A DNA stretch of 64,000 nt from Diadema setosum (taxonomy: Eukaryota; Echinodermata; Echinoidea; Diadematoida; Diadematidae). Positions within the stretch are counted from its first letter, which is position 1; each line of letters begins with the position of its first letter. The position numbers and the translations under genes are program-made. Positions 11,216 to 61,541 of this stretch are shown here, in pieces. The DNA is taken from contig NC_092705.1 of assembly GCF_964275005.1 (NCBI RefSeq), positions 17,449,385 to 17,513,384 of the forward strand, written 5' to 3'. The notes beneath the pieces are model-generated. The model was not told where the DNA came from. It saw only the letters and a program-made list of their open reading frames with translations, and searched no databases.

Positions 11216-13142
11216 TCTGTCTCCTGTTCATATGTTTGTGGTAAGGGGATGCTGCTTGCGTCTTTTTTTATGATAATGATAACTGATCGGCGCACCGCTA
11301 GGAGTCACCCATCTGATAATGGAACCTTCCACCTACTCATACATGCCATCTCGCATGCAATCACAATTCACAACTTAAATATCCATTATCCTCATCAATA
11401 GTCATCAACCACTTCATTAACATTTACTGCTCATGCATGAATAACCGTACCAATGCGAATAAGAAGAAAAGGAAAATGTTTTATTATGAATTAAAGGGTG
11501 AAACAACGTACCATTCTACAAGGTCAGATTTGTTGACAGAGATTTGATTATTAAAAGATGAGTAACAAAGTTTATTGTAACATTAGTAGTAAAGTAAAAC
11601 CGTGATACGCAGATAATTGATAAGTTCAGATTTCTTCAGTAAAGTAGGCTAATTTAGTGGCGATTGCTGCTTTGTCAAGAAAGCCTGGATAACATTTACA
11701 TTCCTTATGTCTAAAATGCTGGATATATCTGCTGGAAATTTTTATATTAGTCAGGGTACCTGATAATAATATTGAATCTGTCTTATACTGCTTTGCTTTC
11801 CATGCTTTTTTTTTCATTAAGATCTACGTTAAACGTTACCTATGCAGCCATATCAACAAGTGACCATAACGTGGAAATCATGAAAATTGTCAAAGCTGCA
11901 GATATAGTCTATGATGCTGTATTCCCCATAACTCTTGGGTAAATTTGCAATCATTTTGGGAATGGAGGCAAACCATCTAAGAGCGAGACAGGCAATAAAC
12001 TTAGCTTTTCTTTATGAAGCAAAGAAGAACGTAAAAAGAGAAAGCTGAATGCGGCATAACACTAGACATTTAAACGTTAAAACAAGTAATAAACAAAGGC
12101 ATTTCTCAAATAATTATCCTTGCGTTGTCTGACTTAAGGTTATTTCATAGAAACAAGAAGTGAACCGCGAGTCTCTATAAAGTATCTTATCATCATTCTC
12201 GTGAAATTGTTTACAGTATTTTCCTGAATGAAACACTTCGCTCTCATGGAGCCTGATATTAGCTGACTGCATATAGATTGATGCAAGTTTCGCTTCACCA
12301 GAAGCGATCAAACCAATAGAATTCTTGGTCCGGTTTTCCCAGTTTTATTACGTTTTTCTTTTTTAGTTAGACTTCTTGGATTCCAGGGCTTATCTGTTTC
12401 TGTTTCCTACGTGAGAGAACATTCAAGTAACGAAATTTTCATCTTGTTGGACTATCATTATAATATTCCACGAAATTCATACAACTTGACTGAGTAAACA
12501 TCTTTAATAAAATCTTGTTTATTTAGCAATAGCTTGTGTTAGAGAAGTAGGGAATATATCAGTTTGCCACATTTGCATTTAATAACTGTAAATTAGCCAC
12601 AATTAGATTACGACCATACTTTCTGTTCGTCTGATTTCCTTTTTTCTCCACAAATGATACACGTTTAAACAGAGATATATCACCAACAGATATCTAAGTA
12701 CTCCAGTTTATTTGCATTAGTTTAATGAATATAGCCTTATTTGCCAGAGATAGCTTTTTAATCTGGTTAAACCTGTACTATCCCTTGTGTCACTCGTTGG
12801 TGTCACGGAAGCTTGGGTCCTGGAGGATAGTTTTCTAATGGCATGCTAAGGAGTAGGTTGGTGGATGTGATTTACCTAACCAAGTTTACATGAACTCGAT
12901 TATCTTTTTTTTTTCCTCGACAAGTCCTAAAAGGATGGTGATGACCAACTCTTGACGTCTGCGTGGATAAAATGAAGACAATGCGCCCTCGCCAGTCAAT
13001 ATATTGCGATTAGGGGAACGTCCAGAAATCCCGAAAGTTCAAGTGGTTCAGTAGAAAGAAAGTTCCGGAATAAGCAGAAAACGCGAACGTGTTGCCATTT
13101 CAAGCTAGTAAGTTATTCCTGTTGACCGTATAAATCCATGCT
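11216..13142. other. Non-coding stretch with cluster-type flanking block
   Basis: No gene seen. 12120-12270 holds a block (ATTTCATAGAAA then a CTCATGGAG/TGATATTAGCTGACTG-like part) that recurs at about 16640, 21370, 26040, 28775 and 34115, always downstream of a leader-exon gene on the minus strand. About 12780-12850 resembles a heavily decayed leader exon of the kind at 22029-22118. Confidence 0.5.
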
Positions 13143-13584
13143 TTACTTCTCGGTTTTGCCAAGGAAGAGGCCTATTCCGAATATGATAGCAACGGCGAAG
13201 GCAGCACCTGTTATGGCAGCAATCACCAGCATATTGCTCTGGAAAAGGTATTATATAATACACAGAATGGAAACTTAGTTCTTTTTCGTTTTGCTTGGTA
13301 TTGTGAAATTATTGTATATAGTTATATGGCATAAGATATTTGATAATGATATTGCAACGCATAATGGCTCCACGAATTAATTATGAGCAGATTTTCGGTA
13401 TGAATTTGAACTCATAACCTTACTACTCTCTCAAGGCAAATACATATATATATATATATATATATATATATATATATATATATATATAATCGTGCAATAT
13501 GCGCATGATAAAAAACACAGATTCGTCCCTTTTTCGACGCGGCTCGTTATAGGTTGGGCCGGAGGTAGGTGACGAGCCCCCCAT
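13143..13584 (-). CDS. Gene E: leader exon + single-TM second exon
   Basis: Exon 1 13584-13519 encodes 22 residues (MGGSSPTSGPTYNEPRRKRD plus ES). Exon 2 13238-13143, after a CCTTTTCCAG acceptor, encodes 31 residues containing a hydrophobic span (LVIAAITGAAFAVAIIFGIG, then LFL) and a KTEK tail. The join is phase 0 and gives a 53-residue single-pass membrane protein without a signal peptide: basic N side, TM, short C tail. The leader is closest to that of gene J (YNE...R-D-S just before the splice). The donor is GTGTTT rather than GTAAGT, so splicing may be weak or the gene recently decayed. Upstream, GAACGAAACGAA and CCAAT-like ATCCAATCAGAA occur. Function unknown. Confidence 0.55.
13443..13489. 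repeat. (TA)n microsatellite
   Basis: Uninterrupted TA tract just upstream (plus-strand side) of gene E's second exon, inside its first intron. Confidence 0.95.
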
Positions 13585-13599
13585 GTCTACACAGTTTCA

Positions 13600-58798: not shown

Positions 58799-58809
58799 AC
58801 GTGAAGTTG

Positions 58810-61355
58810 GCAGTAGGCTTTTACCCATCCGAATATTCTCAACATAATGTATACTAAAATATAGCTAATTGAATACATGTAGTAGGGGGAGGAGACACCT
58901 AAATATGACTTTGGTTTCTTGACAAATGTTTGAAAGTCAGCATCCAAATGGATATTTTGTAGCTTTGAGAATTTCCTATTTACGAAATGCCATGATTTAT
59001 ATCAATTTCTTATTATGCAAATTATATATGCACATTATGGATATGTAATCTTTCATATAAGCAAGGACGCTGCATATAATTATGATCTAATAAAACCGAC
59101 AAATTTAATTTCTATGTAGTCCCGTCTTTCCTACAGTATGTGTCCCTATAAGTCTCAGTAGAATGTAGCATGTCATTTAAATAGGCCTATTTGTTGGTGT
59201 TCCACTATGATGTCTCGTCACAACAACCAACTAAACATACAGACCGTGCACAAACACTACTCCTCTGCTCACACAAACGCAGTTCTAGAATGTGATTTCT
59301 TTTTTTAATGTCTGCAAATGTACTGAATAAAATCAATAGTCTAATGGAGACCGAATTCATCTTGGATATTGCTCTCAGAATAATGCATGGGTCAACTACA
59401 CAGAATCTTCACATATATTTTTGCCTCGTTCATGTAACCATAATATCCTCTTGAATTGGTTCTGTTTTGTATGGTAAATGTTAGGATATTACAGCATTGT
59501 TATTTTGATTATGACGTCAAGCCGACGAGAAATTCTCATTTCATCAAGTAGCATTAGAATTTCTGAAGAGTATTCAAGTAAGCTTTCACATTTCTTATGG
59601 CTGGAAAACTTGTAGACAAGTTTAACATCGTCAAACTCTACCAAATCTATGATTTTGAAGAAATAGATTTATGCACAAGCAGCCTTTCTACAAGGCACCT
59701 ACAACCTACTGGCATAGTGAATTATAACCATTAGATGGATACCATATTTTGCCATTTGTTTTCGGCAATTGTTTTGATGCGTTGATAACGGTTCTATGTA
59801 ATATTCTACGTATTCCACTGAACAAATGTTTATTCTCTAACGTACATGTAAAGTAGACGCGTATATTACTTCATCTTGATAATTCACATGTTATGAGATA
59901 ATGATATAATCAGCAAAAGAAAGAATGTCCTATTACGTGGTGCACAAAACATTTTCTGCTTTATGCTAGCATTTAAACATTGACACAAAAACTTTATTTT
60001 GTCTCTTATGAGAGACAAGATAAAGCTTTGGTGAAATATTTCCTAGATCCAAACACTGGAGAAAGGTATGGCGAAACGCACCTTGCAGCTCCTATGGCAT
60101 CCTCATATATTTGTGTGCAATTTCGTTTCCTATCACTTACTCATCTACTGATGGTGAGATATTGGACAAATCATCATACATCGCCTCTCAAAAAGATGTA
60201 TTTCACCGTTCTACATACCATGATAATGAGTAAAGAACTCTGAAGTTATCTAATGTCTAATCTGTTTTATGTGACATATGCCTAGATTTACTCGCACATA
60301 GCTATCTTCTCTTGATGCTTAAAGGTTGTAGTTTGGCGGTTAATGCCGAATAATTTTCATCTGCGTTACTTTGAAAATCTTATTTATAAAACTGTCATCG
60401 AAAATTTCTATCTCCCCCCTGTTTCTACTAATATCATTCCAAAATGACAAAGTTACAACATGGTTATTGAAATTGTGCCTTTGGAAAAGACAAAGAGCGT
60501 GAAAAGGATAGAGATCGATATTCGCCTAGCACATATTACCACCACGTACGCGTCGTCAAAGGTCATACTATTAAAGCTTACACTCTCAGGGATCGTCTTC
60601 AGTACGTCGAATAGCAACCAATGCGTTGATGTAATTTTGAGTTGTAATGTCAAATTAGGAGTTTGGACAAAAACAGTATTTGATTTGTAAAGTTGCTAAA
60701 GTTACTCATTTTGGAAGGCAAATTAAGGTAGAGATTGAAATGAAGAGAAGGCTGTAAAGCTCATTCTACGTCATAATCCTGTAGAAACAAATGACAAAGA
60801 ATGCATTGTTTATACTATGAGTTTATCGCCATTACATGATGCAGATTTGATTGCAGACATGCTTTCAGTGCCACCGGGCCACCGATGTATATCAATAGCA
60901 GGAAAACAGAAAAATGCCTCTGTAAAGTTATCATGCTGTACACCAACATTTATTCCAGTACATATATTTCAATTTTTCTGAATCACTTAATGTAAGTAAA
61001 ATACAAATAAACACACATTTTCCAAGTCATGTTGTCACTCCACCAAATTATGATACATGTAGTAATAATGAAGATAACAATAATGATAATTATAGCAGAG
61101 AAGGGAAGAGTTTGTCATGTTGCTATCTACAATGCTTAGCTCGTAACAATTGCACAATAGCACATGTGACGTAGCACGACATTACTTCTTTATGAACATC
61201 GCTACTATAAAGAGTGGGTGGTTGTACACAGTAATAACAACTCAGGGATATGCATTATTTGTTTTTGTTTTTTGTTGTTGTTGAAGATTTCTTTCCTTTC
61301 CATCATGCGACTAGCACAGTGAAGCCTTGTACATCTGTAGTAGTGAACCATGACC
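58810..61355. other. Upstream of gene B
   Basis: 60050-60840 is the duplicate of 48360-49100. No reading frame is conserved between the two copies on either strand, so I treat it as non-coding. Confidence 0.5.
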
Positions 61356-61541
61356 CTAGAGACCGTAAAAGTTAGAAACTTTCAACTCTTTTGAAGCTGA
61401 ATTGTAGCCAAGAAAAAAAAAAGAGTAGCAACGGAAAAGCACATAAATAACTCCAGCGCATAGTATTGGAACTGCGACACTCGCAAGACAACCGGAAGCG
61501 ACGATAGCACCGAGGAATCCCACAGTGCATCTGTGATAGTG
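61356..61541 (-). CDS. Gene M: possible TM-type second exon without leader
   Basis: After CTGAAGAG a frame of 61 residues reads HYHRCTVGFLGAIVASGCLA, SVAVPILCAGVIYVLFRCYS and on to K-V-S-N-F-Y-G-L-stop. The FLGAIVAS...LCAG stretch resembles gene J's FLACVIVAAS...LCTG, hence the call. It would be phase 0 like the others. No leader exon with the N-E-P motif was found within about 1 kb upstream, where a G-run and a recurring block lie. An overlapping frame (61382-61648) is also hydrophobic, so the choice of frame rests on the similarity to J. Could be a relic. Confidence 0.35.
   Translation of the reverse strand, partial: HYHRCTVGFLGAIVASGCLASVAVPILCAGVIYVLFRCYSFFFLGYNSASKELKVSNFYGL

Follow-up and report, generated by a model that had tools for sequence, protein, structure and literature searches.

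The window analysed here (the whole 64,000-nucleotide stretch of Diadema setosum DNA, C22:17449385-17513384, within a 31.8-Mb contig of the 912.7-Mb genome) carries a tandem array of small predicted genes, and is read, with confidence a little above even, as an NF-kB-inducible immune cluster in which short polar leader exons would be joined in phase 0 to varied second exons, an ISG15/FAT10-like modifier among them. Eleven leaders and one relic were found in the window, all on the minus strand, and a twelfth leader (gene L) was found 9 kb beyond the window edge (leader, L021:9127-9189; ubiquitin exon, L021:8407-8640). Old duplicates (about 60-83% identity) surrounded the loci in many stretches, which argues for a tandem array. 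The genome itself reads as that of an echinoderm: COX1, on a contig of 15,708 bases, fits the echinoderm mitochondrial code, with AAA at conserved Asn positions and AGR at conserved Ser positions, and genes for tRNA-Arg and tRNA-Lys come after it. Local searches covered 184 kb around the array, and genome-wide searches scored only the best candidates. The original prediction, made from the letters of the window, had described one leader type duplicated and joined to unrelated second exons by replacement; one leader-exon family and tandem duplication were upheld, but second-exon replacement was not demonstrated. The leaders of the window were:

13519..13584, minus strand: E leader exon, MGGSSPTSGPTYNEPRRKRDES, weak donor GTGTTT
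15541..15612, minus strand: relic leader, MSYENKAARAKTTSSKATCGQLI followed by a stop, alignable to K and to the upstream side of K
18123..18227, minus strand: G leader exon, donor GTGAGT
22029..22118, minus strand: K orphan leader, donor GTGGGT, without a convincing exon 2
26724..26813, minus strand: I orphan leader, donor GTGAGT
30096..30185, minus strand: H leader exon, donor GTGAGT
35555..35605, minus strand: F leader exon, MGDRPTSGQSQNEPSRH, donor GTGAGT
39439..39501, minus strand: A leader exon
47627..47653, minus strand: C leader exon, MDEPSRKRP, short
52543..52605, minus strand: D orphan leader, exon-2 side entering the repeat copy 51874-52217
55787..55846, minus strand: J leader exon, MGLKPSSGNRYNETSRHRDS, donor GTAAGT
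58566..58631, minus strand: B leader exon, MSSNKKHPPGGNRGNEPDRKRP, donor GTAAGC

The motif predicted to precede the GT donor, NE[PT]xR[KH], was matched seven times in the six frames of the window, all on the minus strand, and was strict at E, G, H, I, F, J and B, but A (NEPHLK), C (DEPSRK), D (NEPSPK) and K (NQPRRH) deviated from it. With a profile of the A, B and D leaders, the leaders of G, I, E, F, J and K outranked every unrelated position (about 128,000 six-frame positions), and the H leader was not among the best 40 positions listed. With a profile of the seven other leaders, D and B ranked right after the training matches, and A ranked fourteenth, behind four unrelated positions. Leader homology is real on these profiles, as six further leaders were recovered by the A/B/D profile. 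The leader of L was the sole further good match in the 184 kb; the next match (16.1) lay in another frame of the ubiquitin exon of L and had no donor. The short leader of C scored 10.1, inside the noise, and its call rests on position and donor. A genome search with the I leader as query matched no leader other than I itself and F (the latter at E 2.9), and was too insensitive to exclude leaders elsewhere.

Leaders were 9-35 codons long, polar and mostly basic (as read, without a hydropathy run), and donors were strong (GTGAGT, GTAAGT, GTAAGC, GTGGGT) in 10 of 11. Among the seven leaders outside the ubiquitin class, the proportions of synonymous (pS) and nonsynonymous (pN) differences were 0.79 and 0.36 (ratio 0.45), with pN 0.24 in the last six codons. 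All 11 leaders together had a ratio of 0.52 in the reading frame vs. 1.00 and 1.27 in the other two frames, and codon choice varied widely among leaders with the residues kept. As judged by this substitution pattern, the leaders outside the ubiquitin class were shown to be maintained at the protein level.

Nine motif types were scanned in the 400 bases upstream of the 12 leaders, of which just two stood out, the NF-kB type (kB site) and a short element, ACGTCA. Sites for IRF, AP1, the gamma-activated sequence (GAS), the heat shock element (HSE) and the full cAMP response element (CRE) were not enriched upstream of the 12 leaders. Strict kB sites numbered eight in the 184 kb, and four of them lay upstream of B, A, C and I, between -167 and -192 counted from the ATG:

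26995..27005, minus strand: I promoter NF-kB site, GGGAATTCCC, -192 from ATG
39665..39674, minus strand: A promoter NF-kB site, GGAAATCCCC, -173 from ATG, TATA at -118
47824..47833, minus strand: C promoter NF-kB site, GGAAAATCCC, -180 from ATG, TATA at -124
58789..58798, minus strand: B promoter NF-kB site, GGAAATCCCC, -167 from ATG, TATA at -111

A TATA box was placed at -111 to -124 in A, B and C. A kB site with at most one mismatch was present at -220 to -120 in 9 of 12 leaders, including I, J, F, G and H. When 101-base windows were moved from -2000 to +400, eight and nine loci had a site at -250 and -200, respectively, and 0-3 loci elsewhere; dinucleotide-shuffled windows had a mean of 1.58 loci and a maximum of five in 500. 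By lineage as grouped in this analysis, the site occurred in six of eight, which draws of random stretches, a softer control than dinucleotide shuffles, reached about once in 200,000. Leaders inside and outside the ubiquitin class, the orphan I among them, had the kB site in common, which links the classes as one family; the shared site also argues that most leaders are not dead.

The ubiquitin fold predicted for the second exons of A, B and C was supported, the fold call coming from sequence profiles:

38728..38961, minus strand: A ubiquitin-like exon, ending LRLRGG-stop
46989..47228, minus strand: C ubiquitin-like exon, without diglycine
57928..58155, minus strand: B ubiquitin-like exon, ending LRLRGG-stop, Pfam ubiquitin 3.1e-8, with a Protein Data Bank (PDB) match

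Only A, B and C exceeded noise in a first scan of the whole window for ubiquitin exons. The Pfam ubiquitin profile (PF00240) scored over its cut-off for B and C and under it for A (E 0.0025) and L (0.061). Identity to the B exon was 52% for A, 47% for C and 41% for L. For the ubiquitin exons, the best single-stretch PDB match was the ISG15 domain 2hj8 (2.1e-7), followed by a ubiquitin entry (3.8e-7). Ratios of nonsynonymous to synonymous substitution rates (dN/dS) were 0.32 for A-B, 0.47 for B-C, 0.25 for A-C and 0.57 for A-L, and by this measure purifying selection acts on the predicted ubiquitin-like exons of all four genes. Each ubiquitin-like second exon held one domain (75-79 codons), unlike the two-domain layout of ISG15. 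The tails of A and B were LRLRGG directly followed by the stop; C and L had other tails, with the diglycine lost. At canonical ubiquitin residues, read from ungapped alignments, I44 was replaced by T in A and B, K48 was kept in B and replaced by S in A, and K63 was replaced by E in both. With threonine at I44 in A and B, and K48 in B only, the usual ubiquitin readers would probably not recognise these proteins.

A genome search with B, in which the best 17 candidates were scored, returned the four genes, the leader of B, polyubiquitin-like repeats on contig C7, and two copies on contig C11. The C11 copies are a second ubiquitin-like stretch (C11:12460230-12460469, L014, and C11:12469355-12469594, L015; both minus strand, 9 kb apart), of which L014 ends in LRGG (Pfam ubiquitin 1.7e-15).

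The second exons of E, J, F, G and H were of other kinds:

13143..13238, minus strand: E second exon, single transmembrane (TM) helix (Kyte-Doolittle mean over 19 residues, KD19, 2.61), acceptor TTTTCCAG
17606..17665, minus strand: G candidate second exon, polybasic, unproven
29571..29633, minus strand: H candidate second exon, polybasic, unproven
35190..35288, minus strand: F candidate second exon, cationic amphipathic (charge +5, hydrophobic moment muH 0.60)
55392..55481, minus strand: J second exon, CCPC plus TM helix (KD19 2.95)

All eight two-exon models of the original prediction were readable as it described them (minus strand, phase 0, introns of 266-477 bases), but independent support was obtained only for the ubiquitin-like second exons of A, B and C. 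No second exon outside the ubiquitin class had a Pfam match over the cut-off. Of the 2211 acceptor-like sites examined in the 184 kb, 20% were followed by an open phase-0 stretch of at least 29 codons, and openness by itself therefore says little for the exons of E, F, J, G and H. A TM exon followed 1.0% of the same sites, vs. two TM second exons in the array, and the single-TM exons proposed for E and J are plausible. The polybasic exons (G, H) and the cationic amphipathic exon (F) could be read in phase 0 as proposed but are unproven. The acceptor of the F exon was the only one behind the F donor to pass a simple filter. Among the ten pairs of E, F, J, G and H, second-exon likeness had p = 0.010 for G-H, 0.019 for F-G, 0.054 for E-F and 0.069 for E-J, and 0.13-0.88 for the other six. 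The E second exon had no other match among the best candidates scored in the genome search; the J exon had other genome matches, all of them weak (E of at least 0.04) and attributed to chance, including an apparent intronless copy on contig C13 (E 0.04) with two stops inside. Conservation between G and H, judged by eye, peaked at window 17440-17610 and 29420-29585, after the proposed stop and without a common frame.

Orphan leaders and relics had been proposed to extend the series. Three orphans were retained, as I, K and D had no convincing second exon behind their donors (the downstream side of D enters a dispersed repeat), together with one relic, at 15.6 kb. For ubiquitin relics, one 520-840-base stretch was searched behind each of the nine loci outside the ubiquitin class. 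The frameshift-tolerant protein profile gave no support there (36 tests, four settings each; 200 dinucleotide shuffles; lowest p = 0.035, at K), nor did the DNA ubiquitin profile (nine tests; 300 shuffles; lowest p = 0.040, at H); given the number of tests these results are null, yet they are no proof of absence. DNA-profile p values were 0.040 for H, 0.146 for I, 0.183 for J and 0.246 for G, and these matches ended at or near the profile end (203-226 of 228). Suggestive letters were seen in I (NIRLRGS) and in G and H (KED-TVY). Descent of all loci from ubiquitin-bearing genes, with the other exons as frame errors, had no clear support from the protein or DNA relic profiles. Second-exon replacement was neither established nor disproved, as no convincing ubiquitin relic was found behind the leaders outside the ubiquitin class.

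Several explanations compete for the same array. A single ubiquitin-like family, with A, B, C and L real, the other leaders decaying copies that lost the ubiquitin exon, and the non-ubiquitin exons chance, is considered unlikely, at not much above one chance in four. It agrees with the 20% background of open stretches, with K and D having no usable second exon (D running into a repeat), and with the weak DNA-profile matches at H, I, J and G that end where the ubiquitin profile ends. Dead copies, however, would not be expected to keep leaders at the protein level while synonymous sites are saturated, nor to carry kB sites at I, J, F, G and H; the relic searches were insignificant as a whole, and the two TM exons also speak against this family.

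Use of the leaders as alternative first exons, with many promoters whose leaders are spliced, over the length of the array, to a small number of common second exons in the manner of clustered multi-first-exon genes, is improbable. All leaders are on one strand and in phase 0, the orphans I, K and D are upstream of usable second exons, and a gene without a terminal exon in a frog peptide cluster borrows that of its neighbour, according to PMC3731216; against this, eight loci have a candidate acceptor of their own 266-477 bases past the donor. That unrelated sequence matched a short motif by chance, for which the small size of the leaders (just 9-35 codons) could be cited, is very improbable in the face of cross-recovery, the codon pattern and the positioned promoter sites.

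The reading as an inducible immune cluster has a number of points against it. The case was built on the sequence of one genome. The kB site was one of nine motifs tried, its position window was fixed after the strict sites had been seen, the eight lineages were the author's own grouping by DNA likeness, and D, K and E had 2, 2 and 3 mismatches. An IRF site (GAAANNGAAA) occurred in 0 of the 12 upstream 400-base stretches, and TATA was not enriched over the AT-rich background. Leaders were picked by a protein motif, which lowers pN, a bias from which cross-recovery is free; ubiquitin-class leaders alone (A, B, D, L) had a ratio of 0.82, and 1.28 in the first six codons, indicating little constraint. 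The E donor was weak (GTGTTT). The simple acceptor filter missed the acceptors of B and C and one proposed for G, which makes the derived rates rough. Second-exon likeness was marginal for E-F and E-J and absent for F-J, and the DNA of G and H was, by eye, more alike past the proposed stop than within the exon.

If the cluster is inducible, infection or injury would switch it on through Rel factors. A and B would be produced mature, with the stop right after LRLRGG, and then be joined to targets through a ubiquitin-type activating (E1) and conjugating (E2) enzyme route, the E1 perhaps being UBA1 or UBA6 by analogy with vertebrate ISG15 and FAT10. The E1 family had 26 genome matches, with near full-length loci on contigs C2 and C7 and partial ones on C1 and C9; one exon of the C7 locus scored 104-108 bits with UBA6 entries vs. 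91-103 bits with UBA1 entries. C and L, without diglycine, may work as ubiquitin-like proteins that stay unattached, membrane proteins of about 50 residues bearing the common leader would be made from E and J, and F, G and H are possibly cationic proteins. The leader would serve as a common N-terminal tag for different proteins, and a shared partner or cell site can be guessed at. Orphan leaders may be dying copies, or may be spliced into the second exon of the next gene. More tentatively, and well short of an even chance, a portable 5' cassette made up of a Rel-responsive promoter and the leader exon may have captured unrelated effectors, including a conjugatable modifier that would be a client of a UBA6-type E1, and leader-tagged membrane or cationic micropeptides in the same induced response.

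Described systems were alike in part. Vertebrate ISG15, according to PMC9680060, is a small inducible gene of two exons with a short intron, as are the A and B models, with the human start codon in exon 1; it shares with A and B the ubiquitin fold and the LRLRGG end, directly followed by the stop in most fish forms, and has tandem copies in a fish, as in the array here. Unlike ISG15, each gene here has one ubiquitin-like domain and not two, a coding leader of 9-22 residues in A, B, C and L that is shared with non-ubiquitin loci, kB sites with no IRF-type site found, and an echinoderm host. FAT10 has two domains and a different tail, unlike A and B. FAT10/UBD of mammals is translated mature, as predicted for A and B (PMC11354881), and is induced by cytokines (PMC7356809). 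A and B resemble ISG15 and FAT10 in anatomy but are not filed as members because of the single domain and the missing IRF-type site. C and L are like TUBL/TINCR of tetrapods, a tiny gene with a lone ubiquitin-like domain without diglycine; A and B differ in retaining the diglycine, and the excerpted account of TUBL mentions no shared-leader cluster (PMC8341662).

Clusters with other products were also compared. SpTransformer (Sp185/333) of sea urchins, as described in PMC8634487, comprises clustered small two-exon immune genes with a conserved exon 1, a variable exon 2 and short tandem repeats around; its leader is hydrophobic and thought secretory, and its exon 2 is pieced together from shared elements, unlike the polar leaders and unrelated endings here. 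Neither a hydrophobic exon-1 leader nor an exon 2 of shared repeated elements was found in the array. The frog skin defence-peptide cluster also consists of clustered small genes, one of them without a terminal exon and using that of its neighbour, and differs in its signal peptide, secreted peptides and lack of a ubiquitin fold (PMC3731216). No described family was alike in the literature searched, as had been proposed, but the combination of a constant first exon and a changing second one is known from SpTransformer (PMC8634487).

Further elements were observed in and around the window. An element of 110-460 bases was repeated upstream of several loci (window 61621-62048, 42107-42526, 30861-31041 and 19070-19235), with no evident shared reading frame among these stretches, and no shared reading frame was seen by eye in aligned downstream blocks of five loci. 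A 2.86-kb tandem repeat (window 3541-8380, copies 92% identical) adjoined a stretch of long open frames interpreted as an L1-like element (C22:17446814-17451921, minus strand). An inverted repeat was located at window 40406-40599 (91-base arms, 86% complementary, 12-base spacing), and a 204-base perfect palindrome at the very end of the window (63797-64000). Towards lower coordinates from the array, two very similar SUEL-type lectin exons were located 8 kb from each other, at L016:1516-2040 (Pfam 1.5e-6, just under the cut-off) and at C22:17409247-17409687 (plus strand).

In animals, inducible ubiquitin-like modifiers of the ISG15 and FAT10 kind have been described from vertebrates. There is also an ISG15-like system in bacteria, and UBA6 and USE1, the enzymes of FAT10, are reported in sea urchins (PMC11354881). 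If the present reading is true, A and B would encode an invertebrate equivalent of ISG15/FAT10, a conjugatable modifier on which the sea urchin UBA6/USE1 route might act. The history of ISG15/FAT10 among invertebrates could then be tested, starting from a Rel-linked echinoderm modifier whose LRLRGG end is already mature. A shared leader and promoter on differing endings would likewise offer a clear example of how first exons are captured within an immune cluster. The array points to a group of inducible defence proteins about which little is known.

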